Assembly (NCBI GenBank): GCA_017474235.1
Contig: JAFVIB010000036.1
Location: forward strand, 1 to 33,737
Direction of reading: 5' to 3'
DNA length: 33,737 bases
Origin: Alistipes sp.
GTDB lineage: Bacteria > Bacteroidota > Bacteroidia > Bacteroidales > Rikenellaceae
Shown piece by piece: positions 5,674 through 33,067 of the stretch. Every line of letters starts with the position of its first letter. The first letter of the stretch is position 1. The position numbers and the translations under genes were made by a program. Below the pieces are notes generated by a model. The model was not told where the DNA came from. It searched no databases and saw only the letters and a program-made list of their open reading frames with translations.

Positions 5674-5783
5674 TTTGCACCCATTTTACCGTCAGAGTTT
5701 ACACTCCGTCACCGCCTTGCACCCATTTTATCATCAGAGTTTGCACTCCGCTCATAGTTTGCACCATTTTATCGTCAGAGTGG
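5674..5783. repeat. 42-bp tandem repeat, about 2.6 copies
   Basis: Three units start at 5674, 5716 and 5758. Each begins TTTGCACCCATTTTA or a close variant and continues with YGTCAGAGT. The third unit runs straight into the left arm of the palindromic element at 5766. The same motif (TGCACCATTTTATCGTC) precedes the element at 14275, so the tandem units look like duplicated left termini of that element. They do not encode a plausible protein. Confidence 0.75.
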
Positions 5784-5892
5784 GGCATTTACAAGGCTCG
5801 GCTAAAAAGACGACGAAGGGCTGTACTGAGTGTACTGCCCTTTGTTGGATTTTTAGTTAGCCGATGGAAATGCGCCACTATCACGATAAAAA
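5766..5892. repeat. Palindromic repeat element, copy 1 (~127 bp)
   Basis: The outer arms are ATTTTATCGTC (5766-5776) and CACGATAAAA (5882-5891). Inside, AGTGGGGCATTT (5779-5790) pairs with AAATGCGCCACT (5868-5879) at 11 of 12 positions, and GCTCGGCTAAAAA with TTTTTAGTTAGCCG. The core is ACGAAGGGC / GCCCTTTGT around TGTACTGAGTGTAC. The gap between the DUF819 and ppa genes is filled by this copy, the next copy and the tandem repeats. There is no protein family I recognise in it. Confidence 0.8.
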
Positions 5893-6001
5893 ATCCCAGC
5901 GATGGATAGTACAAGTATTACAGCCATTGCTGGGACTTTTTTATTAGCGGAAGCAGATGCGCCCTTATAAGCGCAAATACTGCCTTTTCACAACAAAATT
6001 A
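5893..6001. repeat. Palindromic repeat element, copy 2 (overlapping copy 1)
   Basis: The core arms are CCCAGCGATGG (5895-5905) and CCATTGCTGGG (5924-5934), with TAGTAC...TTACAG in the loop. The right flank TTAGCGGAAGCAGATGC is shared with the other copies. The left arm appears to be the right arm of copy 1, so the two copies overlap head to tail. The right end reaches the TTA at 5999-6001, which is the stop codon of ppa on the minus strand. Confidence 0.7.
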
Positions 6002-6676
6002 CACATGGCGAAGTATCTCATCCAACCCATCAAAATGACACTTATAGTCCTCAAGTGAGCGATTGATGATTTGTTGAGCCTCCTCACGACCATATATATC
6101 AACAATCTCGACCTTCTTAGCCTTCTCGCTATCAGGCATATCCTTATAGGTGAGGAAGTAGTGCTTGAGGCGGTTTACAACACCCTTTGGCAGCTCGGCG
6201 ATGTCGTTATAGCTGCTATATGTAACATCGTGTGTAAGCACTGCGATAATCTTATCGTCAGCCTCGTTTCCGTCTATCATACGGAAACCACCGATAGGCT
6301 TAACCTCGCAGATAATATCTCCGTGGACAATATCGCGCTCGGTAAGAACACAAATATCGAGAGGGTCGCCGTCACCAACGATGTCGGTGCGACTGCTCTG
6401 CTGCATACAGTACTCTGCAACCTTGTCACCACAGAAGCTCTGCGGCACAAAACCGTAGAGAGCAGGCACTACATTAGAGTATTTCTGCGGGCGGTCAATC
6501 TTCAGATAGCCACTCACCTTATCAAGCTCATACTTAACAGTATCGGTAGGTACCATCTCGATAAAGGCAGTAATTACATCAGGTGCAGCCTCGCCTACCT
6601 CAATACCGTGCCACGGATGCGACTTATAACGCAAGCCCATCAGTCGTGCAATAGGATCATTGATTTTATTTCCCAT
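5999..6676 (-). CDS. ppa: Inorganic pyrophosphatase, family I
   Basis: The 225-residue cytoplasmic enzyme hydrolyses pyrophosphate to two phosphates and so drives biosynthetic reactions forward. The family I signature DGDPLDICVL, with three metal-binding aspartates, lies near residues 101-110. The substrate-binding stretch KYELDK...DRPQKYSNVVPALYGFVP is also visible near residues 48-77. The length exceeds the roughly 175 residues of the E. coli enzyme, with extra N-terminal (HPWHGIEVGE) and C-terminal segments common in Bacteroidota. It has its own promoter and is flanked on both sides by palindromic repeat elements. Confidence 0.95.
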   Translation of the reverse strand: MGNKINDPIARLMGLRYKSHPWHGIEVGEAAPDVITAFIEMVPTDTVKYELDKVSGYLKIDRPQKYSNVVPALYGFVPQSFCGDKVAEYCMQQSSRTDIVGDGDPLDICVLTERDIVHGDIICEVKPIGGFRMIDGNEADDKIIAVLTHDVTYSSYNDIAELPKGVVNRLKHYFLTYKDMPDSEKAKKVEIVDIYGREEAQQIINRSLEDYKCHFDGLDEILRHV

Positions 6677-6696
6677 AATCAGAATTGTTTATTACA

Positions 6697-6727
6697 CAAA
6701 GGTAATATTTTTTTGTGATAAAACAAA
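6697..6727 (-). promoter_or_regulatory. ppa promoter
   Basis: Read on the minus strand this is TTTG (6724-6727), a 19-base spacer and TACCTTTG (6697-6704). It is a full match to the Bacteroidota promoter, 20 bases upstream of the ATG. Confidence 0.75.
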
Positions 6728-6777
6728 ATTATGCAGGCAGAACTCGGCAAAGTTCAATTAAAGCACCGCCCAAAAAA

Positions 6778-6903
6778 AATTGATTTTAACGCGATAGATA
6801 CAACACTCGACAAAAATCCCAGCGATGGATAGTACTAAGGCGTACAGCCATTGCTGGGATGTTTGTTAGCGGAGGTAGGTATCCGCATTATCACGATAAA
6901 TTA
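6778..6903. repeat. Palindromic repeat element, copy 3
   Basis: The core is CCCAGCGATGG (6818-6828) / CCATTGCTGGG (6848-6858) with TAGTAC...GTACAG in the loop, nearly identical to copy 2. The left flank CACTCGACAAAAAT and right flank TTTGTTAGCGGAGG correspond to those of the 14275 copy. The outer arms (TTGATTTTAAC left, CACGATAAATTA right) pair less well than in other copies. The right end coincides with the TTA at 6901-6903, the stop codon of the TPR gene. Confidence 0.75.
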
Positions 6904-8247
6904 CTCGAGACCCTTAAGCTTCTTATAAACAGCATTATACTGATTATACTTATCCATCACGCCCGGCTCATCGCGGAGAAGGAAGCATACGCTCTTAAGG
7001 AGCTGTGCGCAATCTACATTCTCAGGGTTGAGAGAGTGAGCCTTCTCGAGGTAAGGGATAGCTTCCATATATACTGAACGAACACGCTTACGCTCTACCA
7101 AATACTCATCCTGGCTTGTGAAGCTATCGAGCTTCTTATTGAACTCGCTATTCTCATAGTCGCCCTTCTCGATGTAGAAGTGACCGATGTAGTAGTTGGT
7201 ATCGAAGTCATTTGGCTTAAGCTCGTCAATCTTCTTGAATGATACGATACACTCATCAAAGTTCTTAAGTTTGTAGAATACGCGACCACGACCAAACCAC
7301 AAGTCAGGGTTATTAGGAGTCTCTGCAAGGAACTTATCAATCATATCGACAAGCTCTGCAGGGTCACCAACGCCCTCCTCAGCAGTGTAGAGAGACATCA
7401 GACCATCGAGGATACGCTCGCTCTTTGGGAACTTCTCGATACCCTCAAGCAGAGTCTCCTTTGCCTTGATAAGGTTCTGCTTATCGTCCTCGCGCTGACC
7501 ATAGTAGCAGTAGAAGAGGTAGTAGTAGAGGTTACCTGTCTCGTCCTGATAGCCAAGCTCAAGAGCCTTCTTGAGGTAGGTTACACCGTCTGCATAGTAC
7601 TTCTTGTTATCAGCACCGAGGATTGCAGAGAGCTGACCGGCATTGATGTACAAGTCAGGATTTGCCTTCTCATAGAGAGGAGTGTTCTGAAGCTCAATAG
7701 CCTTTACGAATGCATCGATAGCCACCTCATAGGCAGGGATAGAGGCACTAACCTCACCAAGCTGGATGTAGTGGTTCAGAGCGATATCAACGATAGGCTT
7801 AACCTTAGATACGCTCTTTGGATCGAGCTCCAAAGCCTTTGTTGCAGCCTCTACGATAACATCAAACATACCCTCCTTAATCTCACGAGTCTGAGACCAA
7901 GCGGCAATCTTATTATCCTTAACATAGACCTTTACCCAAGGATATACCAAAACTGTACGCTGCTGCTCGTCTGTAACAGTCTCAGTTGGTGTATCATTCA
8001 TAATCTGATTTAAGAATGTTACATCAAAATCTACATTGAGTGCCTTTGTTGGCTCAATGAGTGCATCGGTATATACCTTAGCACGGTTTACCCAAACTGA
8101 AGCCTTTGCAGACTTCTTTGCATCTACAACCTCAGCATCGCTCTTTGAGAGCTTTGCAAGAGTTGACTGCTCGTTGATTTTCTGTGCAGTAGCAGTTGGC
8201 ACTACCATTGCCATTACGGCTGCTACCATCAAGATAACTTTTTTCAT
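6901..8247 (-). CDS. Secreted tetratricopeptide-repeat protein
   Basis: The 448-residue protein starts with a clear signal peptide (MKKVILMVAAVMAMVVP, cleavage after ATAQ near residue 22) and has no lipobox, so it is likely periplasmic. Most of the rest is helical repeat. TPR-like units are visible around residues 180-240 (PDLYINAGQL, YLKKALELG), 250-280 (AKETLLEGIEKFP) and 300-350 (PDLWFGRGRVFYKLKNFDE, DTNYYIGHFYIEKGDY), ending with IPYLEKAHSLNPEN. TPR domains mediate protein-protein binding; the partner is unknown. The gene starts 20 bases after gyrA and is probably in the same transcript. Its stop codon is embedded in a palindromic repeat element. Confidence 0.85.
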   Translation of the reverse strand: MKKVILMVAAVMAMVVPTATAQKINEQSTLAKLSKSDAEVVDAKKSAKASVWVNRAKVYTDALIEPTKALNVDFDVTFLNQIMNDTPTETVTDEQQRTVLVYPWVKVYVKDNKIAAWSQTREIKEGMFDVIVEAATKALELDPKSVSKVKPIVDIALNHYIQLGEVSASIPAYEVAIDAFVKAIELQNTPLYEKANPDLYINAGQLSAILGADNKKYYADGVTYLKKALELGYQDETGNLYYYLFYCYYGQREDDKQNLIKAKETLLEGIEKFPKSERILDGLMSLYTAEEGVGDPAELVDMIDKFLAETPNNPDLWFGRGRVFYKLKNFDECIVSFKKIDELKPNDFDTNYYIGHFYIEKGDYENSEFNKKLDSFTSQDEYLVERKRVRSVYMEAIPYLEKAHSLNPENVDCAQLLKSVCFLLRDEPGVMDKYNQYNAVYKKLKGLE

Positions 8248-8267
8248 AGTATTAAAAAATTAGTTTG

Positions 8268-10829
8268 TTATTTATTCTCATTCTCTACATTGGCAACGCT
8301 CTCAACAGCCTCAACACCCTCAGTATTGACTACTGCATCAGCAGCTACCTCCTCAGCATCCTCGCTCTTTGGCACTGCCATAACAGATGCGATACTATCA
8401 CCCTCACGCAGGTTGATAATCTTCACACCCTGTGTTGCACGACCAGCAAGGCGAATCTGATCTACCGAGGTGCGGATTGTAAGACCCGAGCGGTTGATAA
8501 TCATCAAGTCGTTTTGGTCGGTTACAGCCTGAATAGATATAAGCTTACCGGTCTTATCGGTGATATTGATGGTCTTAACACCCTTACCACCACGGTTTGT
8601 AACACGGTACTCATCCAAATCTGTTCGCTTACCAAAGCCGTTCTCCGAGAGTACGAGTACATCCTGCTGTGAATCAGGCTCGATGCAAATCATACCGATA
8701 GCCTCATTGCCATCCTCAAGAGCGATGCCACGAACACCCATACTTGTACGACCTACAGGGCGGACAATCTCCTCATTGAAGCGAATAGCCTTACCCTCGC
8801 GTGAAGCAATCATCACCTCAGCCTTACCGCTGGTAAGTTTTGCCTCGATGAGCTGGTCGCCCTCACGGATAACGATTGCATTGACACCATTTGCACGAGG
8901 ACGGGAGTATGCCTCCAACTTGGTCTTCTTGACCGTACCATCCTTGGTACACATAATGATATAGTTGTTATTCACATACTCTGCATCGTTAAGACGCTTG
9001 CAGTTGATATATGCACGAACCTTATCATCCGGCTCAATCTGAATAACATTCTGTATTGCGCGACCCTTTGAAGCACGAGTACCCTCCGGAATCTCATATA
9101 CCTTGAGCCAATAGCAACGACCCTTCTCCGTAAAGAACATCATCGTATTGTGCATAGAGGCAACATAGATATGCTCGATAAAGTCCTCATCGCGTGTTGC
9201 ACTACCCTTAGCACCTACACCACCACGGTTTTGTGTACGATACTCAGAGAGTGATGTACGCTTAATATATCCGAGGTGAGAGATAGTGATAACCATATCC
9301 TCATCGGCATAGAAGTCCTCCGGATTGAACTCCTCTGAAGAGTAAACAATCTCTGAACGACGCTCATCGGCATAGTTCTCACGCACCTCAATCAGCTCGT
9401 CCTTAACAATCTTGAGCTGCAACTCCTCGCTGCCCAAAATAGCTGTAAACTCGGCAATGCTTGCCTCAAGAGCATCACGCTCTGCTGTGAGCTTACCGTG
9501 CTCAAGACCTGTCAGAGCACCCAAACGCATAGCTACGATAGCCGCAGCCTGAAGCTCGCTCAGTGAGAAACGCTCCATCAGAGCCTGACGAGCATCCTCC
9601 GGAGTTCGCTGTGCGCGAATAGTGTGTACAACATCGTCGATATTGTCCTGCGCAATGAGCAGACCCTGAACGATATGCAGACGGTCTTGCGCCACCTTCA
9701 AGTCGTGCTGTGTACGGCGAACAACCACCTGATGACGGTGATCTACGAAGTGGGCAATAAGCTGCTTGAGGTTGAGAAGCTCCGGACGACCATTTACAAG
9801 TGCAATATTGTTCACTGCAAATGACGACTGGAGTGTAGTATGCTTGAAGAGCATATTTACAACCACATTAGCAACTGCATCCTGCTTGAGCAGAACAACA
9901 AGACGGATACCGTCGCGATCTGATGACTCGTCGTTTACATCGGCAATGCCGTCAATCTTACCCTCCTTAATCAGCTTACCGATGCTGTCGCAAAGCTCAT
10001 CCTTGCGAACCATATACGGCATCTCGGTAAATACAATCTGCTGACGATTGTTCTTTGTAGTCTCAATCTCGTACTTAGCACGGATAACCACGCGACCACG
10101 ACCTGTCAGAAGTGCCTCCTTGATACCTGCATAGCCGTAGAGAATACCGCCGGTAGGGAAATCGGGACCCTTGACAAAGTGGAGCAGATCCTCGCACTCG
10201 CACTCAGGATTGTCGATATATGCACAGCAGGCATCTACAACCTCTCCCAAATTGTGCGGAGCCATATTTGTAGCCATACCTACCGCAATACCGCTTGCAC
10301 CATTTACCAGCAGCAACGGAATCCTTGTAGGCAAGACTGTCGGCTCAAGCTCCTCGCCATCGAAGTTCGGAGTCCAATCGATAGTCTGCTTATCAATATC
10401 TGCCATAACCTCGGCAGAAATCTTCTGCAATCGAGCCTCTGTATAACGCATCGCAGCCGGAGAGTCACCATCCATCGAACCGAAGTTACCCTGACCATCT
10501 ACAAGCGGATAACGCATAGCCCACGGCTGAGCCATACGACACATTGCATCATAGACAGATGAGTCACCGTGTGGGTGGAACTTACCGAGCACATCTCCGA
10601 CAATACGAGCCGACTTTCGCGTCTCCTTGTCGTAGTAAAGATGCAGATGCTCGCTCATATCAAACAAGATACGACGGTGCACCGGCTTGAGTCCGTCACG
10701 AACATCCGGCAAAGCACGCGAAACAATTACCGACATCGAATAGTTGATGTAGGCGGTCTTCATCTGCTCCTCGATATTCACTCTATCGATTCTGCCGACA
10801 AGACCCTTATTCATCTCTTCCAATTCCAT
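8268..10829 (-). CDS. gyrA: DNA gyrase subunit A
   Basis: At 853 residues this is a full-length GyrA, the breakage-reunion subunit of the A2B2 gyrase that introduces negative supercoils. The N-terminal domain is typical: [17 protein letters not shown] near 37-53, the quinolone-determining region [12 protein letters not shown] near 85-96, and the catalytic tyrosine Y129 in [10 protein letters not shown]. Positions equivalent to E. coli Ser83 and Asp87 are Ser90 and Asp94, the susceptible residues. The C-terminal beta-pinwheel repeats are present, with a GyrA box of QNRGGVG in place of QRRGGKG. The last 35 residues are acidic and low in complexity. I assign gyrase rather than ParC from the length and box. 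A TPR gene follows after 20 bases. Confidence 0.95.
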
Positions 10830-10875
10830 AATATAATTTTTAATACGCTATTTCTGTATCCTTATAATACACGCG

Positions 10876-10906
10876 CAAAAATAGCGAAAATTTTCGATTT
10901 TGGCAA
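10876..10906 (-). promoter_or_regulatory. Likely gyrA promoter
   Basis: On the minus strand, TATTTTTG (10876-10883) lies 20 bases downstream of a TTG (10904-10906). It is about 46 bases upstream of the gyrA ATG. The -7 box fits TAnnTTTG; the -33 box is partial. Confidence 0.5.
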
Positions 10907-10995
10907 CTTTGCCGCAATCTTTTCGGCTCTTTTTATAAAATAACGGAGAAATTTTGCGATTATTGCCCGTTTTTGGGCGTTTTTAGGACATCTGT

Positions 10996-12906
10996 CTATT
11001 TTTCCGACCCCCTGTCGGCTACAAGAGCGACATCTCCCGCGTCGGAGATAGTAATAGCACCACTCTCTGCCATTTTAGAGAGCGCAGCACTAATTTTCTG
11101 CGGTGGCAGCTGTATGGCGTGGGCTATATCGCGCAAGGTGGAGTTACCCTTGACAAGTATCTTTTCGACCTCTCTTTCTATATCGGCACTCTCAACGCCC
11201 CTTTTTTTGGCAAGGCATATATCACAGCAACCGCACGGCTCTGCCGATGTATCGCCAAAGTATCGCTGAATGACCACACTACGGCACTGGCTGTTATTGT
11301 CTGCATACTCTATCATCGTATCAAAGCGCGCCATCATCTGAGCCTTACGCTCCGAGTAGGTCTTTGGCGCAATATAGAGGTCGGCAGGTGGCAGTCGCTC
11401 CTCGTTCATACAAATCATAGGCGAGCTATTTGCCGGCACATAACGGATTATCTGCCTAATCCACAGCTCTTTAAGCGACTCGCGCACCTCTACCGGATGG
11501 AGCTTGGCTGCCGAGGCTATCTCCATCTCATCAATGGCTCTAAACTCGGTAAATACACCGCTATAAAATCGAAGTATTGTAAGCATCACAAGCTCCGTGC
11601 GCTTACTTACATCGATGTTATAGAGGTCATCTCGCCCGACCCTGAATATAACTCTTGCAGGGTTCTCTGCAACCTCAACATAGGTCAAATACTCATTTCT
11701 CTCAAGCAGGTCTATCGCCCCAAGAACAACCGTCGGGAAGTAGTGGTACTTGGCACAGAAGTCGTGGATATTGAATATATATTTGTGCCCCTTGCCATCC
11801 CCTATCGCTATCATAAGGAACGAGCAGAGCTCATTATATATCTGCTTGACAACATCTATTGGCGGAAAACTGCTATCAAGTCTGCGACCCACAGCCCTAT
11901 AATCCTCTGCCGAGACAAGCAGTGTCGCATAGCTACGCTTGCCATCACGACCCGCGCGACCCGCCTCCTGATAGTAGCTCTCCATATTGTCACACAGTGT
12001 GTAGTGGACCACAAAGCGGACATCGCTCTTGTCTATACCCATACCGAAGGCATTTGTGGCAACCATAACTCGCACCTTGCCCTCTACCCACTCATCCTGA
12101 CGGATAGAACGCTCCTCGGCAGGTAACCCGCCGTGGTAGTAAGATGCGCTAATACCCTGCTGCTGAAGAAATTCGGCAAGTTGCTCGGCTGTATTTCGCT
12201 TACGCACATAGACAATACCCGAGCCGGCAACACCACCGATAATACGCAGCAGCTGCTCCTCCTTGTCATCAACCTTTCTTACAACATACGACAGATTTGG
12301 GCGGGCAAAAGAGCTGCGCAAGACCCTCTTTCGGTCAAACTTAAGCTGCGCCATTATATCATCCGCAACCCTATCTGTTGCCGAGGCTGTAAGTGCCAAC
12401 ACAGTCACATCGGGCTGAAGCTCTCGCAACCGCGCAATATGCAGATAGGCAGGGCGGAAGTCGTAGCCCCACTGCGATATACAGTGCGCCTCATCGACCG
12501 CTATCAGAGAGAGATTCATTCGCCTTACACGCAACTGAAATATATCAGAATTCAGACGCTCAGGCGAGACATAGAGAAACTTTATATCGCCATAGACACA
12601 GTTATCAAGCAATCTATCAATCTTCTTGCGCGACAGACCCGAGTGTATCGCCACCGCCTGTATGCCCCTTGCGCGCAGACCATCTACTTGGTCCTTCATC
12701 AGCGCAATAAGAGGGGTAATGACAATACATAGCCCCTCACTGACAAGAGTGGGCAGCTGATATGTTATCGACTTACCGCCACCTGTCGGCATAAGGGCAA
12801 GGGTATCCTTCCCCGAAAGGACAGACGATATTATCTCGTACTGCATCTCTCGGAAGCCCTCGTAACCCCAATATTGCCGTAGCGCGGCAAGTAATTTCTC
12901 TCTCAT
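10996..12906 (-). CDS. recQ: RecQ-family ATP-dependent DNA helicase
   Basis: The protein has 636 residues. RecQ unwinds DNA 3' to 5' and acts in recombination and fork repair. Motif 0 is FREMQYEII near residue 18, Walker A is PTGGGKS (K45), Walker B is VDEAHCISQWGYDFR at about 137-151, and motif VI is YYQEAGRAGRDGK. The zinc-binding cysteines appear as NSQCRS and CGCCDIC. After the zinc and winged-helix regions, the last 65 residues (REVEKILVKGNSTLRDIAHAI...) look like a further small winged-helix fold, and I see no HRDC domain. The promoter is not obvious; the gene is divergent from the acetyltransferase. Confidence 0.92.
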   Translation of the reverse strand: MREKLLAALRQYWGYEGFREMQYEIISSVLSGKDTLALMPTGGGKSITYQLPTLVSEGLCIVITPLIALMKDQVDGLRARGIQAVAIHSGLSRKKIDRLLDNCVYGDIKFLYVSPERLNSDIFQLRVRRMNLSLIAVDEAHCISQWGYDFRPAYLHIARLRELQPDVTVLALTASATDRVADDIMAQLKFDRKRVLRSSFARPNLSYVVRKVDDKEEQLLRIIGGVAGSGIVYVRKRNTAEQLAEFLQQQGISASYYHGGLPAEERSIRQDEWVEGKVRVMVATNAFGMGIDKSDVRFVVHYTLCDNMESYYQEAGRAGRDGKRSYATLLVSAEDYRAVGRRLDSSFPPIDVVKQIYNELCSFLMIAIGDGKGHKYIFNIHDFCAKYHYFPTVVLGAIDLLERNEYLTYVEVAENPARVIFRVGRDDLYNIDVSKRTELVMLTILRFYSGVFTEFRAIDEMEIASAAKLHPVEVRESLKELWIRQIIRYVPANSSPMICMNEERLPPADLYIAPKTYSERKAQMMARFDTMIEYADNNSQCRSVVIQRYFGDTSAEPCGCCDICLAKKRGVESADIEREVEKILVKGNSTLRDIAHAIQLPPQKISAALSKMAESGAITISDAGDVALVADRGSEK

Positions 12907-12961
12907 CGGTCGCTAAATTACACTTTTTTTTGCAGACTGACGATTTTTTCAACGAAAATTG

Positions 12962-12969
12962 TATCTTTG
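12962..12969 (+). promoter_or_regulatory. -7 box of the maa-ruvA unit
   Basis: TATCTTTG lies 19 bases before the ATG at 12989. No good -33 box is visible at the usual spacing. It decides the start at 12989 over an in-frame TTG at 12959 upstream of the box. Confidence 0.55.
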
Positions 12970-12988
12970 TAGGCAAAAGAGCAAAACT

Positions 12989-13543
12989 ATGAAGAGTGAA
13001 TTTGAGAAGATGATGGCTGGAGAGTTGTACAACTTCCACGACCCCGAGGTCAATGCCGCCTTCGCCCGCAGCAAGGAGATACTTGTCAAGCTCAACAATA
13101 TGACCCGTCGCGACCCCGACTTCCCGAAGGTGCTGCGCGAGCTTATTCCCAATATGCCCGAGAGTTCGACCATCTCTGTACCTTTCTACTGCGATGTAGG
13201 TTTCCGCATCAAGGTCGGAGAGCACTCCTTTATCAATAAGAACTGCACCTTCCTCGACTCCGGAGGTATCACTATCGGCAACTACACCAAGATTGGTCCA
13301 AACTGCGGTTTCTACACCCCGCAACACCCTACAAACTACCTCGAGCGTCGCAAGCCTATCGAGACCGGTATGCCTATCAAAATTGGCGACGACTGCTGGA
13401 TTGGCGGCAGTGTTACTATATGCCCGGGAGTGACCATTGGCAACCGCTGCATCATCGCTGCCGGAAGTGTTGTTATCAAAGATATTCCCGATGACTCATT
13501 AGCTGCGGGAAATCCGGCTGTTGTAAAGAAAAAGTTACTATAA
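12989..13543 (+). CDS. Maltose O-acetyltransferase-type enzyme (LbH family)
   Basis: The 184-residue cytoplasmic protein belongs to the left-handed beta-helix acetyltransferases of the NodL/LacA/Maa group, which move acetyl from acetyl-CoA to a sugar hydroxyl. The N-terminal Mac domain (MKSEFEKMMAGELYNFHDPE) is followed by hexapeptide repeats (GGITIGNYTKIGPNC, MPIKIGDDCWIGGSVTI, CPGVTIGNRCIIAAGSVV). The catalytic His lies in YTPQHPTN near residue 112. It ends LAAGNPAVVKK, the usual acetyl-CoA-binding tail of the family. The sugar acceptor is unknown. ruvA follows after 11 bases. Confidence 0.88.
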   Translation: MKSEFEKMMAGELYNFHDPEVNAAFARSKEILVKLNNMTRRDPDFPKVLRELIPNMPESSTISVPFYCDVGFRIKVGEHSFINKNCTFLDSGGITIGNYTKIGPNCGFYTPQHPTNYLERRKPIETGMPIKIGDDCWIGGSVTICPGVTIGNRCIIAAGSVVIKDIPDDSLAAGNPAVVKKKLL

Positions 13544-13554
13544 ATCAGACTATT

Positions 13555-14145
13555 ATGTACGAATATATCACAGGTCGTCTTGCAGAGGTTGCACCGACAT
13601 ACGCAGTTGTTGAAGCCGGTGGCATCGGTTACTTTATAAACATCTCGCTACAGACCTACTCAGAGATTGAGAATAGCGAAAATACAACCCTCTATCTCCA
13701 CTACATCGTCCGCGAAGATGCGCAGATTCTCTACGGCTTTGCCACAAAGGCAGAGCGCGAACTGTTCCGACTGCTGATAGGTGTCTCGGGCGTGGGTGGC
13801 AACACTGCTCGAATGATTCAATCGACCTACTCTCCATCGGAGTTGCGTAATATTATCGGCACGGGAAATGCCGTACTGCTGAAGAATGTCAAGGGCTTGG
13901 GTCTTAAGACTGCACAGAAGATTATCGTCGAGCTGAGTGGCAAGATGGTCGAGCTGAAGGGCGACGAGAAGGGCGCAGGCAAGGTTATTGCTATTGATAA
14001 CGAGAACTTTAGCGAGGCTCTCTCGGCTCTTGTTATGCTCGGTTTCCAAAAGAGCGCATCAGAAAAGGTACTCAAAAAGCTCTTCAAGGAGAGTCCCGAT
14101 ATGCGGGTCGAGGAGGCTGTCCGCCTTGCCCTCAAACAACTGTAG
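13555..14145 (+). CDS. ruvA: Holliday junction DNA helicase subunit RuvA
   Basis: The 196-residue protein has the family length. RuvA tetramers bind four-way junctions and recruit RuvB for branch migration. Domain I is the N-terminal OB fold (MYEYITGRLAEVAPTYAVVEAGGIGY). Two helix-hairpin-helix motifs follow: LLIGVSGVGGNTARMI near 78-93 and LKNVKGLGLKTAQKII near 108-123. The flexible linker is short, and the C-terminal domain III (ALSALVMLGFQKSASEKVL) should contact RuvB. Neither ruvB nor ruvC is adjacent. It is expressed with the acetyltransferase upstream; a palindromic repeat element lies 130 bases downstream. Confidence 0.95.
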   Translation: MYEYITGRLAEVAPTYAVVEAGGIGYFINISLQTYSEIENSENTTLYLHYIVREDAQILYGFATKAERELFRLLIGVSGVGGNTARMIQSTYSPSELRNIIGTGNAVLLKNVKGLGLKTAQKIIVELSGKMVELKGDEKGAGKVIAIDNENFSEALSALVMLGFQKSASEKVLKKLFKESPDMRVEEAVRLALKQL

Positions 14146-14274
14146 AGTTTAGACAAGCGCAGGTCAGACGCGCGACTTACCTACTTTCAAGGTGGTCCCC
14201 CGAAACAAAATAGTGCGCATCAGCGACGACGGTGTTAGGGGAATTTTCCTAAAGCTCCGTTCACTTTCTGCACC

Positions 14275-14404
14275 ATTTTATCGTCAAAATGCGGTAGATG
14301 CCACGCTCGGCAAAAATACCCGCGAAGGGACATACTATGCGTATTTCCCTTTGCGGGTACTTTTTGTTAGCGGCAGCAGGTACCGTATTTTCACGATAAA
14401 ATTT
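14275..14404. repeat. Palindromic repeat element, copy 4 (~130 bp)
   Basis: This is one of the cleanest copies. The outer arms ATTTTATCGTCAAAATGCGG (14275-14294) and CCGTATTTTCACGATAAAAT (14383-14402) match as inverted repeats at 18 of 20 positions. The core is CCCGCGAAGGGA (14319-14330) / TCCCTTTGCGGG (14346-14357). The intermediate arms GCTCGGCAAAAAT and TTTTTGTTAGCGGC also correspond. It sits between ruvA and the FKBP lipoprotein operon, and its right end overlaps the -33 box at 14403-14406. Confidence 0.85.
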
Positions 14405-14434
14405 TGTATTATTGGGTAATATTTAATATCTTTG
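14403..14434 (+). promoter_or_regulatory. Promoter of the FKBP-protease operon
   Basis: TTTG (14403-14406), a 20-base spacer and TATCTTTG (14427-14434) form a full Bacteroidota promoter. The -7 box ends eight bases before the ATG at 14443, so the transcript has almost no leader. The -33 box is contributed by the end of the palindromic element. Confidence 0.7.
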
Positions 14435-14442
14435 CGCGTTAT

Positions 14443-15051
14443 ATGGCTGTGAAAGGATTGATATATATGGCGATGATTGCATCTGTGATGTTTTGCGGGT
14501 GTGAGAATGATGTGGATATGCTGACAACACAGAAGGATGAGATTGTCAAGTATCTGACCACATCACGCCGTATGGTTGCGCAGGAGGAGGTAGGAACGGT
14601 AATTGAGAACAATCCACCGTTCTATACAGCCTTTGGGCAGTCGGTATATCGTCATATAACCAACTTCTACGACGAGGGTCGTGAGGAGTGGAGCGAGGTT
14701 GGTGCTACGAGCACTGTGAATATCAACTTCAGTGCCTATGTATTTGGTGGCTCGGAGCCTACGGTGAGTGACATATATTGGTCGAACATTCCGGCGGTAA
14801 TCTCCGAGGTGGAGGCTATGGGTGGCAATAAGTACAGCGACCTTATATGGGAGGATAGACCGCTGACCATTCAGTTGGGTCGTGGCGAGGCTATCAGAGG
14901 GCTTGAGGAGGCTCTTATAGGTTGCAGAGACCAAGATTCGGTGCAGGTATATATGACCTCGGAGGCTGCTTATGGCAAGGCGATAATCGGCTCGGTGCCG
15001 AAGAACAGCCCTGTGGCGTGGTATATTAAGATTTTGAATGTAACAAAATAG
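14443..15051 (+). CDS. FKBP-type peptidyl-prolyl isomerase lipoprotein
   Basis: From the ATG at 14443 the protein has 202 residues. It has a short lipoprotein-type signal (LIYMAMIASVMFCGC, probable lipidated Cys near 20), so it should be anchored in the cell envelope. The C-terminal half is a recognisable FKBP domain: IQLGRGEAIRGLEEALIGC near 145-163, YMTSEAAYGKAIIGSVP, and the closing strand PVAWYIKILNV. These correspond to the GWDEGL, AYG and P-x-F/W-x-I/V elements. It is the first gene of a three-gene secreted operon, with four bases to the next start. The domain probably assists folding of exported proteins; isomerase activity is not certain because several active-site aromatics differ. 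Confidence 0.75.
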   Translation: MAVKGLIYMAMIASVMFCGCENDVDMLTTQKDEIVKYLTTSRRMVAQEEVGTVIENNPPFYTAFGQSVYRHITNFYDEGREEWSEVGATSTVNINFSAYVFGGSEPTVSDIYWSNIPAVISEVEAMGGNKYSDLIWEDRPLTIQLGRGEAIRGLEEALIGCRDQDSVQVYMTSEAAYGKAIIGSVPKNSPVAWYIKILNVTK

Positions 15052-15055
15052 AGAT

Positions 15056-16603
15056 ATGAGGACTATTATAACGCTTTTAATTACACTCTTTGCTCTCAGC
15101 TCTTGTGTTAAGGAGCCTGAGTACTCGGGTAAGGACTTCGAGGCACGCTCACTGAAGGCGTGGATGAAGAAGAATCGTCCTGACCTTATGGGTAACTATC
15201 AGAGCGAGGGGGGTTACTATGTAGATGTACTCGAGTGGGGTGATGAATCTACTCCTGCATCGGGTAATGACTTTGGCTCGCTGCCGATTATGGAGCAGGA
15301 TACCTGTTGGGTATATTACAACCTTACAGGTTATGACCTTGACGGAAACCTCTGCTCTACCCGCAACGAGGTACTTGCCCGTATGCAGGCAACTTATGCC
15401 GACCGTACCCACTATGCGCCATTCGGAAACTTCTGCGGAAAGAATGAGTACTATGCCATTGTCGAGGGTAGCTATCTTGCATCTCGCAATGAGATTACGC
15501 TTGCCGATGATTATGTGTCTGAGCACTCGGCTATCTGCAAATCTACAAAGTTAAAGTTGCGCAAGGGCACAAAGGTACGCCTATATCTCGCCTCTACAAT
15601 CGGTTATGGCTCTAATGGTTCATCTGCCGAGGGTGGCTATGAGGGTCAATATGCACTCGACCCGAGTGTGCCGATGATTCTCGACCTTGAGGTTGTCAGA
15701 GTTATCAAAAACCCTTCTGACAACGAGCTTGAGATGGTTGAACAGGTTGTAAAGAAGAGCAATGAGGGCAGCGACGAGGCTGTTTGGTTGCAGATTGAGA
15801 ACAAGGGTGACGAGGAGAGTGACGAGAATGGCGACACTGCTGAGGATTCGTCTGACACAGAGGATACTGAGGGGGATAGTACGGAGAGCAAGTACCACGA
15901 GGGTATCTACTACACCACAGCCTTCCGTCCTGATGACAACTTTGAGCATCTGAACTATGTTCGTCCCGATGTGGCAGGTATTGGCAACCCATATAAGGAC
16001 TCAAAGCGTTTTGCCGATATGGCAGAGTTTGACAAGAAGTTATGGGATATTCTCGACAAGAAGTTTGCCGACCAAATTAAGAGTACCTCTGAGGAGGATG
16101 CAAAGGAGGTTGGCGAGGAGAATGCCGCTATGATTTGGTATGTAGGTCGTTTCCTCGACGGCTTTATCTTTGACACTAACATTCAGGAGGTCAAAGAGTT
16201 GGCTTTCAATGAGGATGAGTCTGCCGAGGCTATCTCATACTCTGTCGAGTCAAATAAGGATGACTACATCAACGCGTGGGCACTCGGTGTTCCGAAGTTG
16301 CGCTATGGTCGTTGGGGTGCGATTATTACCACCTCGGGTTATGCATACGGCACAAGTGGCGTATCGGGCTCTACAACTACAAGCAGTTCAACAGCCTCTT
16401 ACAACGCCCTTGCAAACCTCTACAACTACTACAGTATGACCAGCTCGTCGTACTACAACCCTTATAGCTACTACAACTACTATAACTACTACGGTGGCTA
16501 TAACAATTACTACAACTATGAGGAGACAACCTCGACTATCGACACTGAGATTGCCCCTTATACGCCGTTAGTATTCTATATCTTCATTGAACCAATGGAG
16601 TAA
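15056..16603 (+). CDS. Lipoprotein with two FKBP-like domains and a Tyr/Asn-rich insertion
   Basis: The 515-residue protein begins MRTIITLLITLFALSSC, a good lipobox with Cys17. I see two degenerate FKBP-like domains. The first (about 100-225) has KLRKGTKVRLYLASTIGYG, then YALDPSVPMILDLEVVRVI. An acidic Asp/Glu/Ser linker (about 240-285) follows. The second (about 300-515) has GVPKLRYGRWGAIITTSGYAYG and ends APYTPLVFYIFIEP. Between the last two motifs, where FKBPs have the 80s loop, about 60 residues of Ser/Thr then Tyr/Asn repeats (YYNPYSYYNYYNYYGGY) are inserted. The upstream neighbour has one such domain. Role: probable surface or periplasmic folding factor; the domain assignment is inferred from motif order. 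Confidence 0.6.
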   Translation: MRTIITLLITLFALSSCVKEPEYSGKDFEARSLKAWMKKNRPDLMGNYQSEGGYYVDVLEWGDESTPASGNDFGSLPIMEQDTCWVYYNLTGYDLDGNLCSTRNEVLARMQATYADRTHYAPFGNFCGKNEYYAIVEGSYLASRNEITLADDYVSEHSAICKSTKLKLRKGTKVRLYLASTIGYGSNGSSAEGGYEGQYALDPSVPMILDLEVVRVIKNPSDNELEMVEQVVKKSNEGSDEAVWLQIENKGDEESDENGDTAEDSSDTEDTEGDSTESKYHEGIYYTTAFRPDDNFEHLNYVRPDVAGIGNPYKDSKRFADMAEFDKKLWDILDKKFADQIKSTSEEDAKEVGEENAAMIWYVGRFLDGFIFDTNIQEVKELAFNEDESAEAISYSVESNKDDYINAWALGVPKLRYGRWGAIITTSGYAYGTSGVSGSTTTSSSTASYNALANLYNYYSMTSSSYYNPYSYYNYYNYYGGYNNYYNYEETTSTIDTEIAPYTPLVFYIFIEPME

Positions 16604-16607
16604 GGCA

Positions 16608-17888
16608 ATGGTTAGACGACTATATAACAGGTGGCAGAGGGCTATTATGCTCTTTGCCACTTGTGTTACTATCAATACCCTTACAGCCCAAAGTGCTGCC
16701 GAGCGCGTGGCGGAGGCTATAAACCGCAGCGATATTGTGTGGCTTGAGAGCAACCATCAGCAGCTCAAAGACTCTCTACCTGCCCATCTGTCGCTTATGG
16801 CAGAGGCTCTCTACTGCTCACAACTCAACCGATACAATCAGAGCAATCGTGCCATTGAGAATCTGCTCAACAACCACGCACAGACTATCGGGGAGCAGGT
16901 TGCAGGTGGTTTTTATGCCCTGCTTATAGATAATCTCAACCGTGCGGGCAACTTCACTGAGGCGGCACGACTTGTGGCAGGAAGCAGTATGAACAGAGAG
17001 GCTCACAGATTTTTTACCGCTATGAGCCGCAAAAAGCCTATGCAGGTAAGGCGTCCGAAGAGAGATGTTACTGTGCCATTCAGCTTATCAAAGCTCTCAA
17101 ATGGCTCGCATATCCATATTCCCGTAGAGATTGACGGCAAAATGGCGTCGTTTATCTTCGACACGGGAGCGGCAAAATACAATGTGGTTACAGAGAGTTG
17201 TGCTGCACGACATAAATTTACTCCTCTCTATGACTCGTTGCCAACAATGGGTGTCGGAGGAGAGGGCTATAGTCGCGTGGTGACTATTCCGAAGATAAAG
17301 ATAGGCAAAATCACAATCAAACACCCTACATTTATCGTTGTGCCTGACGAATCTATACCGGCTGACTCTTTGGGCGGTTTCAAGCTCGAATATGTGTTAG
17401 GCACAGATTGTATGGAGGCTCTTGGCGAGGTGGTATTTGATATGGACAAAGATAGTATGACCGTACCGAGCATAACAACACCAAAGGGCGAAAACACCAC
17501 CCCGCTGACACATAGCAACAACTACTACATCTACCCTACTGTAAACGGCAGACAAATCTCTATGCAGTTTGACACAGGGGCTGTTGCAACGCACCTCTAC
17601 GGTCGATTTATGCGCGAATTTAGGGAGGTGCTGACCCTTATTGGCGAGCCGAATAGTACCCGCGCTCGTGGTTTTGGCGGAACGACCTACTATACGGTGC
17701 AGTGCGCCCAAAAGATAGATATTACAATGGGCAACAAGAGTATCACTCTCAACAATATTGATGTATCGACAGCCGACCACGACCTGCCTATCCAAAAAGA
17801 GGAGTATGGCTCTCTTGGCACAGATGCTCTCCTCAAATGCAAGAGGGTCAGAATCAACTTCAAGCAGATGTTTGTAGATGTTCAGTAA
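16608..17888 (+). CDS. Secreted aspartyl protease with two DTG motifs
   Basis: I choose the ATG at 16608 (426 residues) over an in-frame TTG at 16587 that overlaps the previous gene. An N-terminal signal peptide (RAIMLFATCVTINTLTAQS) directs export. Residues 30-150 are helical and TPR-like. Two retropepsin-type halves follow: FIFDTGAAKYNVV with D185, and MQFDTGAVATHLYG with D322. Each is followed by a hydrophobic-glycine element (YVLGTDCMEAL, YGSLGTDALLKC). One chain may thus supply both catalytic aspartates, or dimerise. It is the last gene of the FKBP operon, four bases after the preceding stop. Substrate unknown. Confidence 0.8.
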   Translation: MVRRLYNRWQRAIMLFATCVTINTLTAQSAAERVAEAINRSDIVWLESNHQQLKDSLPAHLSLMAEALYCSQLNRYNQSNRAIENLLNNHAQTIGEQVAGGFYALLIDNLNRAGNFTEAARLVAGSSMNREAHRFFTAMSRKKPMQVRRPKRDVTVPFSLSKLSNGSHIHIPVEIDGKMASFIFDTGAAKYNVVTESCAARHKFTPLYDSLPTMGVGGEGYSRVVTIPKIKIGKITIKHPTFIVVPDESIPADSLGGFKLEYVLGTDCMEALGEVVFDMDKDSMTVPSITTPKGENTTPLTHSNNYYIYPTVNGRQISMQFDTGAVATHLYGRFMREFREVLTLIGEPNSTRARGFGGTTYYTVQCAQKIDITMGNKSITLNNIDVSTADHDLPIQKEEYGSLGTDALLKCKRVRINFKQMFVDVQ

Positions 17889-17892
17889 AACA

Positions 17893-17928
17893 GAGAGGCT
17901 ACCCAACAATGTTGCTGGATAGCCCCTC
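17893..17928. terminator. Terminator hairpin between converging genes
   Basis: GAGAGGCTACCCAACAA and TTGCTGGATAGCCCCTC form an imperfect stem of about 15 pairs around a two-base loop. It lies between the aspartyl protease and malQ stop codons. It belongs to the same GAGGCT-type family of terminators as those at 3609 and 27605. Confidence 0.65.
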
Positions 17929-17951
17929 CCCACTCTTACTATCTGTCAGAT

Positions 17952-20399
17952 TTATCTGTAATTCGCGTGTACTAAATACTCAACCTGATTATTGAACTCC
18001 TCCGCTGCAAGCAACTGCTCAAGGGTGATATGCATACGATAACGCCAATAGTGAGTTGGATTTGCAGGGACATTGATACGCTCACCATCAGGGTCTGCAA
18101 AACGGATATTTCCGTCTATTGACATCCAATCCTGAAGAGGCAGAATTGTAAGCATTGCCGGAGATGCCAAATGGCGGTTGATAATCTCACGACAAATCTC
18201 AGGTGTAGCATCTGCCGGAGCCTCGCCCCACCACTGCATAACATTATTGTAGTAGTGCTGTGTTGTCTCGCGGTTCTCACGCCACCAAGCGCGTACAGGG
18301 TTCATATCGTGGGTCGATGTTGTGCAGACAGCGCGGTATGGATAGTGCATAACAGCACCGAACTCAACACCTGTATCCTTTGGCATACGCTCAATCTCGA
18401 GTGAGAGAATCTGCTGATTATTCATCACCTCCGGTACGCAGTCCGGAATCATACCCAAATCCTCGCCACAAGTGAGCATACGGGTAGTCTCTACAAGCAT
18501 AGAGAGTCTCTGCTCGGCAATTGCCTTCCAATAGTCATTATGGCGACGGTAGTAGAACTCGTTGTGAATCTCTGCAAAGGCGTGCTTCTGGTCATCAGAG
18601 AGGCGGGCAAAGCTCTGTGTATCAAACGGAGTGATACGAGGATAGTAGTGACCCTGCTTATGGCGATACTCAAGCCAAAGCACATCGTCAGAGCTATAAT
18701 CCTTCGCCACATCGCGCTGTGGGTCGAAGTTGAAACCACGCCAGCGAATATCGTCAGCAGTATAAGGCATTGATGGGTTAAACTCGCCCAAAAGTGCATT
18801 TACAGCGTCGAGTGGCACCTCCCAAATGCGGAAGAAACCGAGGATATGGTCGATACGGTAGGCATCAAAGTACTCAGCCATCTTACGGAAGCGAGTCTTC
18901 CACCAGCCGTAGCCGTCCTTTGCCATCTCCTCCCAATTGTAAATCGGGAAGCCCCAATTCTGACCTGTCACAGAGAAGTCATCAGGTGGAGCACCGGCAG
19001 ACGATTTCATAACAAACAGCTCCGGAGAGACCCACGCATCAACACTTATAGGGCTTACACCGATAGGAATATCGCCCTTCAGAGCTACGCCAACAGAGTG
19101 ACCATACTCAATAGCTGCGTGAAGCTGACGGTCGAGGTGGAACTGGATGAAACGGTAGAAATCTACCGCCTCAGCGTTCTTCTCTGCATACTTTGCACAC
19201 TCCTTTGCGCTGTATGTGGCATACTTACCCCACTTCTTAAAGTCGGCACTCTTGTACTTATCGCGCAGAGCCGAATATACAGTATACGGAGTCAGCCAAC
19301 CCTCATTTGCCGCAAGGAAAGCCTTATACTCCTTACTTGCAAGGGTCTTTGCACCACTCTCGGCAAAGAGGATACGCAGATAGTCAAACTTACCATTCAG
19401 CGCACGCTCGTAATCTACCTGTGGCAGAGCATTAAGCTCCGCTTGCAGTGCTGCAAAACGCTCACGGTCTGCCTTCTTCTTCAGCTTGCCGGCAGCCTCA
19501 AGATTGATGTAGAGCGGATGGAGCGCGATTGTCGAGTTGGCATTGTATGGATAAGAGTCCTTCCAAGTGCGAGTCATTGTGGTATCGTTGATAGGCAGAA
19601 TTTGGATAATGTTCTGACCTGTGCGTACGCACCAATCGGCAAGCAGCTTGAGGTCTGCAAAGTCACCCACGCCAAAGCTACGCTCACTGCGCAACGAGAA
19701 CATAGGTACTGCCACACCTGCACCACGCCAAGAGGCAGTATCACGCAGGCGCATACCTCTTATTATATATGCAGCCCCCTGAACACCGAAATATGGAAGT
19801 ACACGGTTATTACCCTCCTCCCAACGGATAACAGCACCCGAAGCGGCATCTACAACCACAAACTTATACTCTGCCGAGCTCTCAGCAGCATCAAGAGTTG
19901 CAGCCCATACACCACCTCCGGTATGCACCATAGCGCGCAGATTGCTGTCGCTCCACTCGCCCAACTGCGTTGTAGAGCCAGCCAAAGCCAACGCCTCGCC
20001 ACGACGAAGTGTCAGCGCCTCAACCTCAAGGCGAACAGCCCCCACAGAGAGTGTAGATACAGCCTCTGCCTTATGAGCAAAGATTGTATCGGTAAACATA
20101 GAGGTATAGAAGGCGCGATTTGCAGGACGCTCCGACCAACAATCCTCAATAACAAGGTACTTCGCATCGGTGGCAACAGCGTAGTTGTGCATCTCGCCCC
20201 ACTCTGTACGGACAGTATTACCCTCGCTATCAAGTACCTCAAAACGGTAGCTCAAACTCTTCGCGCTCTTCGGCAGACGAAACATAGCTACCCAATTATG
20301 ACCCGAGCAGGTCATATCTACCCTCTTACCATCAGCAAGAACAAGCACAAGTCGCTCTCCCCATACAGTACGGTAATCGATATTTACAGTAACATTCAT
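17952..20399 (-). CDS. malQ: 4-alpha-glucanotransferase (DPE2-like MalQ, GH77)
   Basis: The 815-residue cytoplasmic enzyme transfers alpha-1,4-glucan chains in glycogen and malto-oligosaccharide metabolism. Two N-terminal starch-binding CBM20-like domains are visible: residues 1-110 (TVWGERLVLVLADG, HNWVAMFRLP) and about 120-215 (GEALALAGSTTQLGEWS, VWAATLDAAESSAEYKFVV). The GH77 domain follows with RSERSFGVGDFADL, the nucleophile in YRIDHILG (D517), acid/base in CGEDLG (E646) and transition-state stabiliser in TSTHDMN (D698). This architecture is that of plant DPE2 and long bacterial MalQ. No other glycogen gene is adjacent. A -7 box TATATTTG lies at 20432-20439 on the minus strand. Confidence 0.93.
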   Translation of the reverse strand: MNVTVNIDYRTVWGERLVLVLADGKRVDMTCSGHNWVAMFRLPKSAKSLSYRFEVLDSEGNTVRTEWGEMHNYAVATDAKYLVIEDCWSERPANRAFYTSMFTDTIFAHKAEAVSTLSVGAVRLEVEALTLRRGEALALAGSTTQLGEWSDSNLRAMVHTGGGVWAATLDAAESSAEYKFVVVDAASGAVIRWEEGNNRVLPYFGVQGAAYIIRGMRLRDTASWRGAGVAVPMFSLRSERSFGVGDFADLKLLADWCVRTGQNIIQILPINDTTMTRTWKDSYPYNANSTIALHPLYINLEAAGKLKKKADRERFAALQAELNALPQVDYERALNGKFDYLRILFAESGAKTLASKEYKAFLAANEGWLTPYTVYSALRDKYKSADFKKWGKYATYSAKECAKYAEKNAEAVDFYRFIQFHLDRQLHAAIEYGHSVGVALKGDIPIGVSPISVDAWVSPELFVMKSSAGAPPDDFSVTGQNWGFPIYNWEEMAKDGYGWWKTRFRKMAEYFDAYRIDHILGFFRIWEVPLDAVNALLGEFNPSMPYTADDIRWRGFNFDPQRDVAKDYSSDDVLWLEYRHKQGHYYPRITPFDTQSFARLSDDQKHAFAEIHNEFYYRRHNDYWKAIAEQRLSMLVETTRMLTCGEDLGMIPDCVPEVMNNQQILSLEIERMPKDTGVEFGAVMHYPYRAVCTTSTHDMNPVRAWWRENRETTQHYYNNVMQWWGEAPADATPEICREIINRHLASPAMLTILPLQDWMSIDGNIRFADPDGERINVPANPTHYWRYRMHITLEQLLAAEEFNNQVEYLVHANYR

Positions 20400-20431
20400 T
20401 TTATATAGTTTTAAGATATTTTTCAGCTATA

Positions 20432-20439
20432 CAAATATA
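20432..20439 (-). promoter_or_regulatory. -7 box of malQ
   Basis: On the minus strand this reads TATATTTG, 32 bases upstream of the ATG. There is no clear -33 element at the usual distance. Confidence 0.45.
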
Positions 20440-20543
20440 CGAAGAAATGTGGAAATCTGCATACACACAACTACTTTTACCTACAGACTGTAAATATTTG
20501 GCTATGAGTTGTTAATTTCGGGAGATGAAATCTCATCACCATG

Positions 20544-20672
20544 TTAAATTGATTTTAAGGAGGCATATACAACTCTCAACTAAAATACCCGCGATGGGAT
20601 GTACTAGAGCGTACTTCCCATTGCGGGTACTTTTATGTTAGAAGCAGTAGATGCCCCTTAAAATCAATTTAA
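20544..20672. repeat. Palindromic repeat element, copy 5 (129 bp)
   Basis: The outer arms are a perfect 17-bp inverted repeat, TTAAATTGATTTTAAGG (20544-20560) and CCTTAAAATCAATTTAA (20656-20672). The next arms (AGGCATATAC / AGTAGATGCC) and TAAAATA / TACTTTTA continue the symmetry. The core is CCCGCGATGGGA / TCCCATTGCGGG around TGTACTAGAGCGTAC. The right end covers the stop codon of oadB (20669-20671 on the minus strand), so the element begins on the last codon of that gene. It separates the methylmalonyl operon from malQ. Confidence 0.85.
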
Positions 20673-21877: not shown

Positions 21878-21881
21878 AAGC

Positions 21882-32992: not shown

Positions 32993-33067
32993 CGGGGTGT
33001 AGCGCAGTCCGGTTAGCGCATCTGGTTTGGGACCAGAGGGTCCCAGGTTCGAATCCTGGTACCCCGA
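32993..33067 (+). tRNA. tRNA-Pro(TGG)
   Basis: The acceptor stem pairs CGGGGTG with TACCCCG. The D arm is GCGCAGTCCGGTTAGCGC. The anticodon stem is TCTGG/CCAGA with loop TTTGGGA, giving anticodon TGG. The T arm is CCAGG-TTCGAAT-CCTGG. Discriminator is A and no CCA is encoded. A terminator follows. Its 3' end is the site of the duplication at 33311. Confidence 0.95.

Follow-up and report, generated by a model that had tools for sequence, protein, structure and literature searches.

The intergenic palindromes found in a 33,737-nucleotide stretch of Alistipes DNA (the whole stretch analyzed, here called the window) belong to a family of noncoding elements of about 126 to 137 bp. The two arms of the hairpin change together from copy to copy, and this matched change is real, statistically strong, and genus-wide. 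Copies tend to face the same way, the base of their hairpin resting on the stop codon that closes the gene reading into them. The explanation that we prefer, to which we give a probability of roughly 45%, is that of a high-copy-number, non-autonomous mobile DNA palindrome of the REP/ERIC kind that is gained and lost and is kept at the 3' ends of genes.

Copies in the window

The initial annotation described five palindromic copies. Copies A, D, and E are full palindromes as described, whereas the copy that it placed at 5893 is truncated (5889 to 5978) and the one at 6778 is a chimera (Table 1). The arm sequences that it quoted as examples proved correct: ATTTTATCGTC/CACGATAAAAT in copy D, which pair with one C-C mismatch; the internal pair AGTGGGGCATTT/AAATGCGCCACT in copy A; and TTAAATTGATTTTAAGG in copy E, which pairs over 17 bp with no mismatch. 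The outermost arm is common to copies A and D, and the differences between these two copies lie further in. Copy B abuts copy A, which accounts for its missing left arm. The last base of the arm remnant next to copy B is also part of the stop codon that ends the gene for inorganic pyrophosphatase (ppa, 5999 to 6676, minus strand; gene identified by Pfam), and the remnant resembles the arm of the copies in L011 and L012 of the host genome. Copy C joins a left arm of the AAATTGATTTTA kind to a right arm of the CACGATAAAT kind; the duplex formed by its own arms reaches only -8.2 kcal, and 16 of 49 foreign right arms are better partners for its left arm. The gene-side arm of copy E holds the stop codon (20669 to 20671) of the gene for the beta subunit of oxaloacetate decarboxylase (oadB, 20669 to 21889, minus strand; Pfam).

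TABLE 1 Copies of the element and associated repeats in the window. The strand given for the copies is the sense strand, i.e., the one leading away from the upstream stop codon. R1 is a covariance model built from 44 nonredundant copies.
Feature	Position	Strand	Description
Short repeats	5675..5765	-	34 to 42 nt, distal to copy A; all start with the arm motif ATTTTA[CT]C[GA]TCA; direct repeat family D13
Copy A	5766..5891	-	Full palindrome; R1 match 5762-5895 minus, 124.2 bits; arms ATTTTATCGTC/CACGATAAAA
Copy B	5889..5978	-	Truncated, core and gene-side arm only; nhmmer, model positions 38-127, 72.7 bits
Gene-side arm remnant of a third copy	5979..5999	-	..CTTTTCACAACAAAAT on the plus strand; read directly
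Copy C	6775..6902	-	Chimeric arms; R1, 90.7 bits; on the stop codon of a TPR gene, 6901-8247 (minus; Pfam)
Copy D	14275..14402	-	Full palindrome; R1, 140.8 bits; upstream of an FKBP-type gene (Pfam), off any stop codon
Copy E	20544..20672	-	Full palindrome with 17-bp perfect outer arms; R1, 113.1 bits

The left flanks of many copies, like the stretch distal to copy A, hold arrays of 34- to 42-nt and approximately 75-nt units that begin with the distal arm and end with TTGCACC. Such units look like truncated units produced by slippage between short repeats. The window also contains an 85-nt repeat (33048 to 33132 and 33311 to 33395, 99% identical) that comprises a tRNA 3' end and a short A/T-rich hairpin; Rfam reports a single tRNA, at 32993 to 33067.

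Family size and distribution

A DNA search of the host genome (1.97 Mb) gave 62 matches to copy D, at least 4 of which are the opposite strand of a place already counted, and an nhmmer search across 36 sources from the same genome gave 74 matches that overlapped one another by at most 20 nt, partial matches included. Among 41 genomes searched at the DNA level with copy D, matches were found in 8, every one of them from a single genus, and in 0 of 16 genomes from other families of the order. The search for further copies with a covariance model, which the initial annotation had proposed, found many in the host; among 61 Alistipes genomes searched with R1, 38, host included, carried the family, often with at least about 54 scored places per genome, and under stricter filters the remaining 23 gave no matches. 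Across the order, R1 matched 2 of 198 genomes, namely, the host and, weakly (E values of 2.4e-4 to 3.2e-4), one genome of another family (G202). The matches in the latter (L153, 25 to 305) are two tandem units 149 bp apart and near a contig end; judged by eye, they keep the GTGATAA, CTACTGCC, GTTGTATCTA, and TTCTGAC motifs and have other arms (GGATTGT/ACAATCC). They are possibly a distant relative, a transfer, or contamination. An exact core pattern matched at least 115 stretches in named GTDB genomes, and the titles listed are those of Alistipes, of Rikenellaceae, and of one "Bacteroidales bacterium" assembly. The same pattern had 0 exact matches in viral contigs, and a link to phages was dropped on that account.

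Head-to-tail arrays with a period of about 130 bp are frequent, and most truncated one-arm units are found distal to the gene (by eye). In some species of the ruminant gut, represented among 16 copies collected by a text pattern (L178, L191, L209, L213, L253, and others), the element forms part of a larger repeat of about 300 nt, which has outer inverted repeats of its own (..GAGGCTGAATAAAAAGTGTATTTTGTCG / CTAAAACTACATCTTTTTATTCAACCTC..) as well as a further hairpin (GCCCTCAAAATGCTCATTTACG..GTAAACTCCGCTTTTTCGGGC) and whose outer arms also seem to covary. The longer flanks shared by these 16 copies raised the question of a tie to one gene family, but the adjoining frames examined differ, and the flanks look like the larger nested repeat. 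A different repeat (GCTGCGATTAAGCCGAG..) is fused directly onto an arm of the element at three places in the host genome (L003, 2541 to 2667; L012, 2233 to 2359; L019, 1677 to 1803). In a congener that gave no model matches (G002), the sequence after the oadB orthologue (L103) contains the inverted arms AATATCGGAA/TTCCGATATT and an GTTAGCGGC motif and is possibly a diverged relative of the element.

Covariation of the arms

Full copies can fold into a single long asymmetric hairpin in which the stems are variable yet mutually complementary and the mismatches and loop motifs are conserved. The initial annotation had claimed that the arms differ between copies while remaining complementary within each copy. 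For 50 full copies from the host, the mean duplex energy of the 27-nt arms was -23.5 kcal/mol when each arm was paired with its own partner and -13.0 kcal/mol across copies; the lowest of 10,000 permutation means was -15.9 kcal/mol, so that the value for own arms was never attained. The claim thus stands for the family, but it fails at copy C and does not extend to the shared outermost arm of copies A and D. RNAalifold applied to the alignment of 44 nonredundant copies gave 32 consensus pairs, 24 of which showed at least one double change. Set against shuffled sequences, a check that had also been put forward at the outset, pairing was far above chance: 93.9% of the cells in this alignment were paired versus 79.3% after shuffling, with 0 of 500 shuffles as high, and the covariation score was 0.398 versus 0.137, in shuffles that ignore the kinship shared by the copies. 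When the register was slid by 1 to 3 columns, paired cells fell to 25 to 46%, a comparison in which the own register is favored by a consensus structure derived from the same alignment.

Among 170 distinct copies, the 9th pair was Watson-Crick in 142 (shuffling expectation, 38%), the 10th in 113 (50%), and the 11th in 28 (17%), and from the 11th base outward pairing was at chance; because only copies that form 7 or more of the 10 arm pairs had been included, the figures for pairs 1 to 10 are raised by the selection itself. The same 170 copies carried 74 distinct 10-nt arms, which fell into recurrent types with mostly ATTT..AAAT ends. Six or fewer of the 10 arm pairs were formed in 16 of 190 copies tested in register. 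In copy C and in copies from three other host loci (L015, L022, and L026), the left and right halves fit different subfamilies, and the copies seem to recombine, with unmatched arms tolerated at least temporarily.

Placement at stop codons

The initial annotation made no mention of the position of the element relative to stop codons. Of the 42 clusters in the host genome, 33 present the same end of the element within -14 to +21 bp of the end of the gene reading into it; contig ends and copy D are among the other 9. The placement was measured on a set of 203 copies, made up of 40 from the host genome (36 and 4 window copies, with some second copies of arrays, such as those in L005, L010, L018, and others, excluded), 11 from two congeners (G003 and G006), and 152 from named contigs selected by pattern. 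Enough upstream sequence was available for 189 of the 203, and removal of 3 entered on the wrong strand left 186; for one copy (L010, 2117 to 2249), the strand entered was the reverse of that of its match. In 82 of the 186, the stop codon of a long open frame lay within -2 to +2 nt of the model start, and in another 22 it fell inside the first 25 nt. It lay further upstream, at 3 to 60 nt in 37 and at 61 to 250 nt in 36, and none was found in 9. The same search made from the distal side found a stop within -2 to +2 nt in 4 of 181 and inside the element in 10 of 181, with none found in 62. Inspection by eye showed that several copies lying 8 to 20 nt past a stop have an older arm remnant on the stop itself and that some of the copies not docked on a stop are second units of arrays.

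For five genes of the window, orthologues with and without an element at their end have identical or almost identical C-terminal residues, and hence the element sits at the natural stop. The flanking genes, which the initial annotation had wished to see listed, yielded 40 gene-side proteins, of which the 10 tested are ordinary cellular proteins from scattered core genes; examples are PGI, a GlnRS/GluRS-type synthetase, RF3, L20, GAPDH, GCV_T, and ATP synthase C.

Three accounts of this placement were considered and set aside. A fixed DNA target such as TAA is not indicated, in that copies away from stops have no TAA consensus beside them. Arms templated by the target were suggested by a HAD-type gene and the orthologue of the gene at 15056 in G003 and by oadB, where the distal arm looked like a copy of the gene's own end; this account was rejected because the pairing of the 170 distinct copies is at chance from the 11th base. 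Insertion into preexisting terminator hairpins was rejected by judgment, the arms being of recurrent types with mostly ATTT..AAAT ends. Of all the features of the element, its docking in one orientation within 1 to 2 nt of stop codons is the hardest to account for, and we know of no DNA-level insertion rule that explains it.

Gain and loss between species

Seven places were compared among two or three species (the host, G003, and G006), and one, the end of oadB, was filled in all three, with the element at the same gene end; its outer arms are identical in the host and G003, and its cores differ. The end of the TPR gene and the place upstream of the FKBP gene are filled in the host and G003 and empty in G006, and the ppa site is filled in the host and G006 and empty in G003. 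The gene at 15056 and a 4-alpha-glucanotransferase gene are followed by an element only in G003, and the HAD-type gene, compared in two species, has one in G003 and none in the host. No common target duplication was seen in the flanks, and the relatives compared are too distant to provide a clean empty site. The initial annotation had argued from the matched arms for selection on the fold or for copying of the arms over simple transposition. The matched change is indeed strong, but the elements behave as repeats that are gained and lost, which leaves room for dispersal, and arm copying through the whole hairpin and selection on an RNA fold both lose ground on the evidence given below.

Pairing in DNA or RNA

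One alternative places the element at the RNA level, as a 3'-untranslated-region (3'-UTR) structure of the upstream message that either terminates transcription or protects the message from 3' exonucleases; selection on the RNA fold would produce the covariation, and spread would be incidental. The preferred orientation and the docking on stop codons speak for it, as does the prediction that published palindromic candidates from Bacteroidetes are terminators (PMC8040213, in the part available to us). It was examined through the mispairs, on the premise that a fold selected as RNA tolerates G-U on the working strand and does not tolerate A-C. Among 158 nonredundant copies read on the sense strand, the raw counts were 105 G-T and 190 A-C cells. 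With one count per sequence context, G-T and A-C mispairs numbered 82 and 124 over every column (p 0.004), 69 and 93 without two columns of doubtful alignment (p 0.07), and 69 and 88 without a third column as well (p 0.15), the columns dropped (25, 26, and 65) having been picked after the counts were seen. The 21 tRNAs of the same loci, a small control, gave 23 G-T and 0 A-C. The 44-copy alignment, with its structure from an RNA program, leans the opposite way (39 G-U versus 28 A-C) and so favors the RNA alternative, but the larger set lacks a sense-strand preference for G-U.

The folds divide in a similar manner. In 40 copies sampled from 162, the mean fold z score was -7.5 on the sense strand and -9.0 on the antisense strand, in keeping with a structured RNA, but the more stable fold is the antisense one (mean, -61.4 kcal versus -53.4 kcal for sense). 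Part of the copies have the layout A-tract, stem, and T-tract, but T-tracts are in the minority (at least 4 T's follow the stem in 68 of 162 copies on the sense strand and in 55 on the antisense strand), and a terminator scan called no window copy. We read these data as evidence for pairing kept up at the DNA level, perhaps with an antisense lean, and against plain selection on the sense RNA. Selection on an RNA fold is weakened by the lack of a clear G-U preference among the mispairs, and a 3'-UTR element of this kind is in our estimate a possible but rather doubtful explanation.

The covariation could also arise without any selection on the fold if a polymerase switched templates within the palindrome during replication and copied one arm onto the other, giving matched change in one step. 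Template switching that homogenizes the arms of inverted repeats is an established process (PMC8604942 and PMC7202029, in the parts available to us), and it would agree with mispairs that have no RNA-type strand preference, with long perfect arms such as those of copy E, with block-like arm alleles (ATCG/CGAT and GTTG/CAAC), and with truncated units whose breakpoints lie in short repeats. Mismatches that copying of whole arms would be expected to remove nevertheless persist: A faces C at one position in 144 of 158 copies, and a second position holds G against G or A in 119 and a T-A pair in 22 of the 158. Copying through the whole hairpin is disfavored because a specific mismatch is conserved and because there are chimeric copies that retain unmatched arms. 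The inversions of the inner core that template switching would be expected to leave were not seen, apart from one possible case among 162 copies: 5 cores scored better reversed, 4 of which were whole copies entered antisense (later dropped), leaving L276. With 70-nt cores, 7 scored better reversed, namely, the same four, L276, and, by 2 to 3 points, L175 and L228. Homogenization of the arms by replication is accordingly judged unlikely.

Proposed explanation

The mobile DNA palindrome kept at gene ends draws its support from the copy number, the spread through the genus, the covariation, the docking, the ordinary core genes on the gene side, the presence and absence at orthologous places, the arrays, the chimeras, the lack of a clear wobble bias among the mispairs, the conserved A-C mismatch, and the chance-level arm pairing beyond the 10th base. 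Counted against it are the searches that found no transposase, the lack of a target duplication or clean empty site among the distant relatives compared, the docking at stop codons that no DNA-level rule known to us explains, the copies off stops with no TAA beside them, the lean toward A-C when every column is kept (82 versus 124), the G-U lean of the 44-copy alignment, the T-tracts confined to a minority of copies, and the terminator scan that called no copy of the window. Under this explanation, the element would have spread as non-autonomous mobile DNA, its folded strand being recognized by a putative recombinase for which the conserved mismatches and loops would be the landmarks. Mainly the copies docked at gene ends would persist, because in that place they would be useful, or at least harmless, to the 3' end of the message that precedes them. 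Their role would be that of an end hairpin, with part of the copies perhaps acting as a bidirectional terminator; a 3'-end role in the upstream message is plausible. The arm sequence would drift freely, and selection for the DNA hairpin would keep the arms paired.

A variant would add a mechanism that senses gene ends: a new kind of mobile hairpin, recognized as a folded DNA strand by its conserved mismatches and loops, would dock at the upstream stop codon in a fixed orientation, and its outer 10-bp arms would be an exchangeable pair of guide and partner, both halves of which change together. We regard this variant as decidedly improbable.

Tens of internally matched copies in each of many genomes, together with several gene ends that have an element in one species but lack it in another, make the family a natural experiment on selection on RNA, selection on a DNA hairpin, and copying of arms. 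The comparison of G-T with A-C mispairs, controlled by tRNAs of the same genome, is applicable to other palindromic repeats that are now catalogued as candidate structured RNAs.

Comparison with known hairpin repeats

The attC sites of integrons are structured palindromes that directly follow a stop codon and that combine a variable sequence with a conserved structure and conserved unpaired bases. The Alistipes element is likewise a palindrome of variable sequence, located at a stop codon and with conserved unpaired bases, but its copies are scattered beside core chromosomal genes, with no cassette array, no R-box seen, and no IntI over the cutoff. Recombinases that bind hairpins make use of conserved asymmetry, in the form of extrahelical bases in attC and of bulges in REP sequences, and the conserved asymmetry within the variable palindrome of Alistipes resembles such landmarks. 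The element could therefore be imagined as a member or a relic of a known hairpin-DNA system, either REP sequences with a RAYT or IS200-IS605 transposase or attC with IntI, on the strength of its anatomy (an imperfect palindrome, conserved mismatches, and a site at the stop codon). Searches for the enzymes point the other way. The Y1 transposase family (PF01797) was found in 0 of 25 genomes (the host and 24 congeners), with 5 of 14 control genomes positive, and no transposase is present among the 10 gene-side proteins tested. Integron integrase (TIGR02249) was over the cutoff in 0 of the 61 genomes of the genus; matches below the cutoff, present in every one of these 61 genomes and of 14 control genomes, were taken as other tyrosine recombinases. 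Membership in either system is very improbable.

ERIC, Correia/NEMIS, and RUP-type miniature inverted-repeat transposable elements (MITEs) are imperfect palindromes of 70 to 300 bp that adjoin coding regions and can fold as RNA or DNA. The Alistipes element is also an imperfect, foldable palindrome near coding regions. It differs from the ERIC and Correia MITEs in having no fixed terminal inverted repeat (its terminal arms vary, though they are mostly paired within a copy) and in its preferred orientation and stop-codon docking; no common target duplication was seen in its flanks. This class of MITEs is named in the background of PMC3733652, which, in the part available to us, describes REP, BIME, and REPIN sequences with RAYT as high-copy-number extragenic palindromes that lie mostly 3' of genes, conserve asymmetric features, and have termini able to supply the stop codon. 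The Alistipes element shares the high copy number, the extragenic position mostly 3' of genes, the conserved asymmetry, and ends that can provide a stop codon. It is about 3 to 6 times longer (126 to 137 bp, compared with 20 to 40 bp), its arms covary and are not conserved in sequence, and its ends vary, with no fixed GTAG/CGTC tag.

The initial annotation knew of no named family with this layout, and none has come to light since. Rfam 15 at the gathering threshold found only a tRNA in the window, and in the five copy-bearing loci, with E values up to 1, it gave one subthreshold match, away from the copies; a search of the literature on palindromic or miniature inverted-repeat elements of Alistipes and on REP and MITE families of Bacteroidales gave no description or name for the element family. 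The closest published candidates are described in PMC8040213, where two palindromic candidate RNAs from human-microbiome Bacteroidetes, HMP2_4205 (132 bp, near TPR genes) and HMP2_1065 (80 bp, near RuvA), occur on both strands and are predicted to be terminators. Compared by description only, the element resembles them in its occurrence in Bacteroidetes, in the length of HMP2_4205, and in its neighbors: copy C adjoins a TPR gene and copy D adjoins a RuvA gene (Pfam), so that these candidates may already include some members of the family. The part of PMC8040213 available to us reports neither stop-codon docking nor a covariation test of DNA against RNA. Taken together, the element looks like a new relative of the REP/ERIC hairpin repeats, with an unusual placement and hints that its pairing is kept in DNA, and it would add a genus-wide family of stop-codon-docked palindromes to a group in which both function and mobility are matters of long-standing debate.
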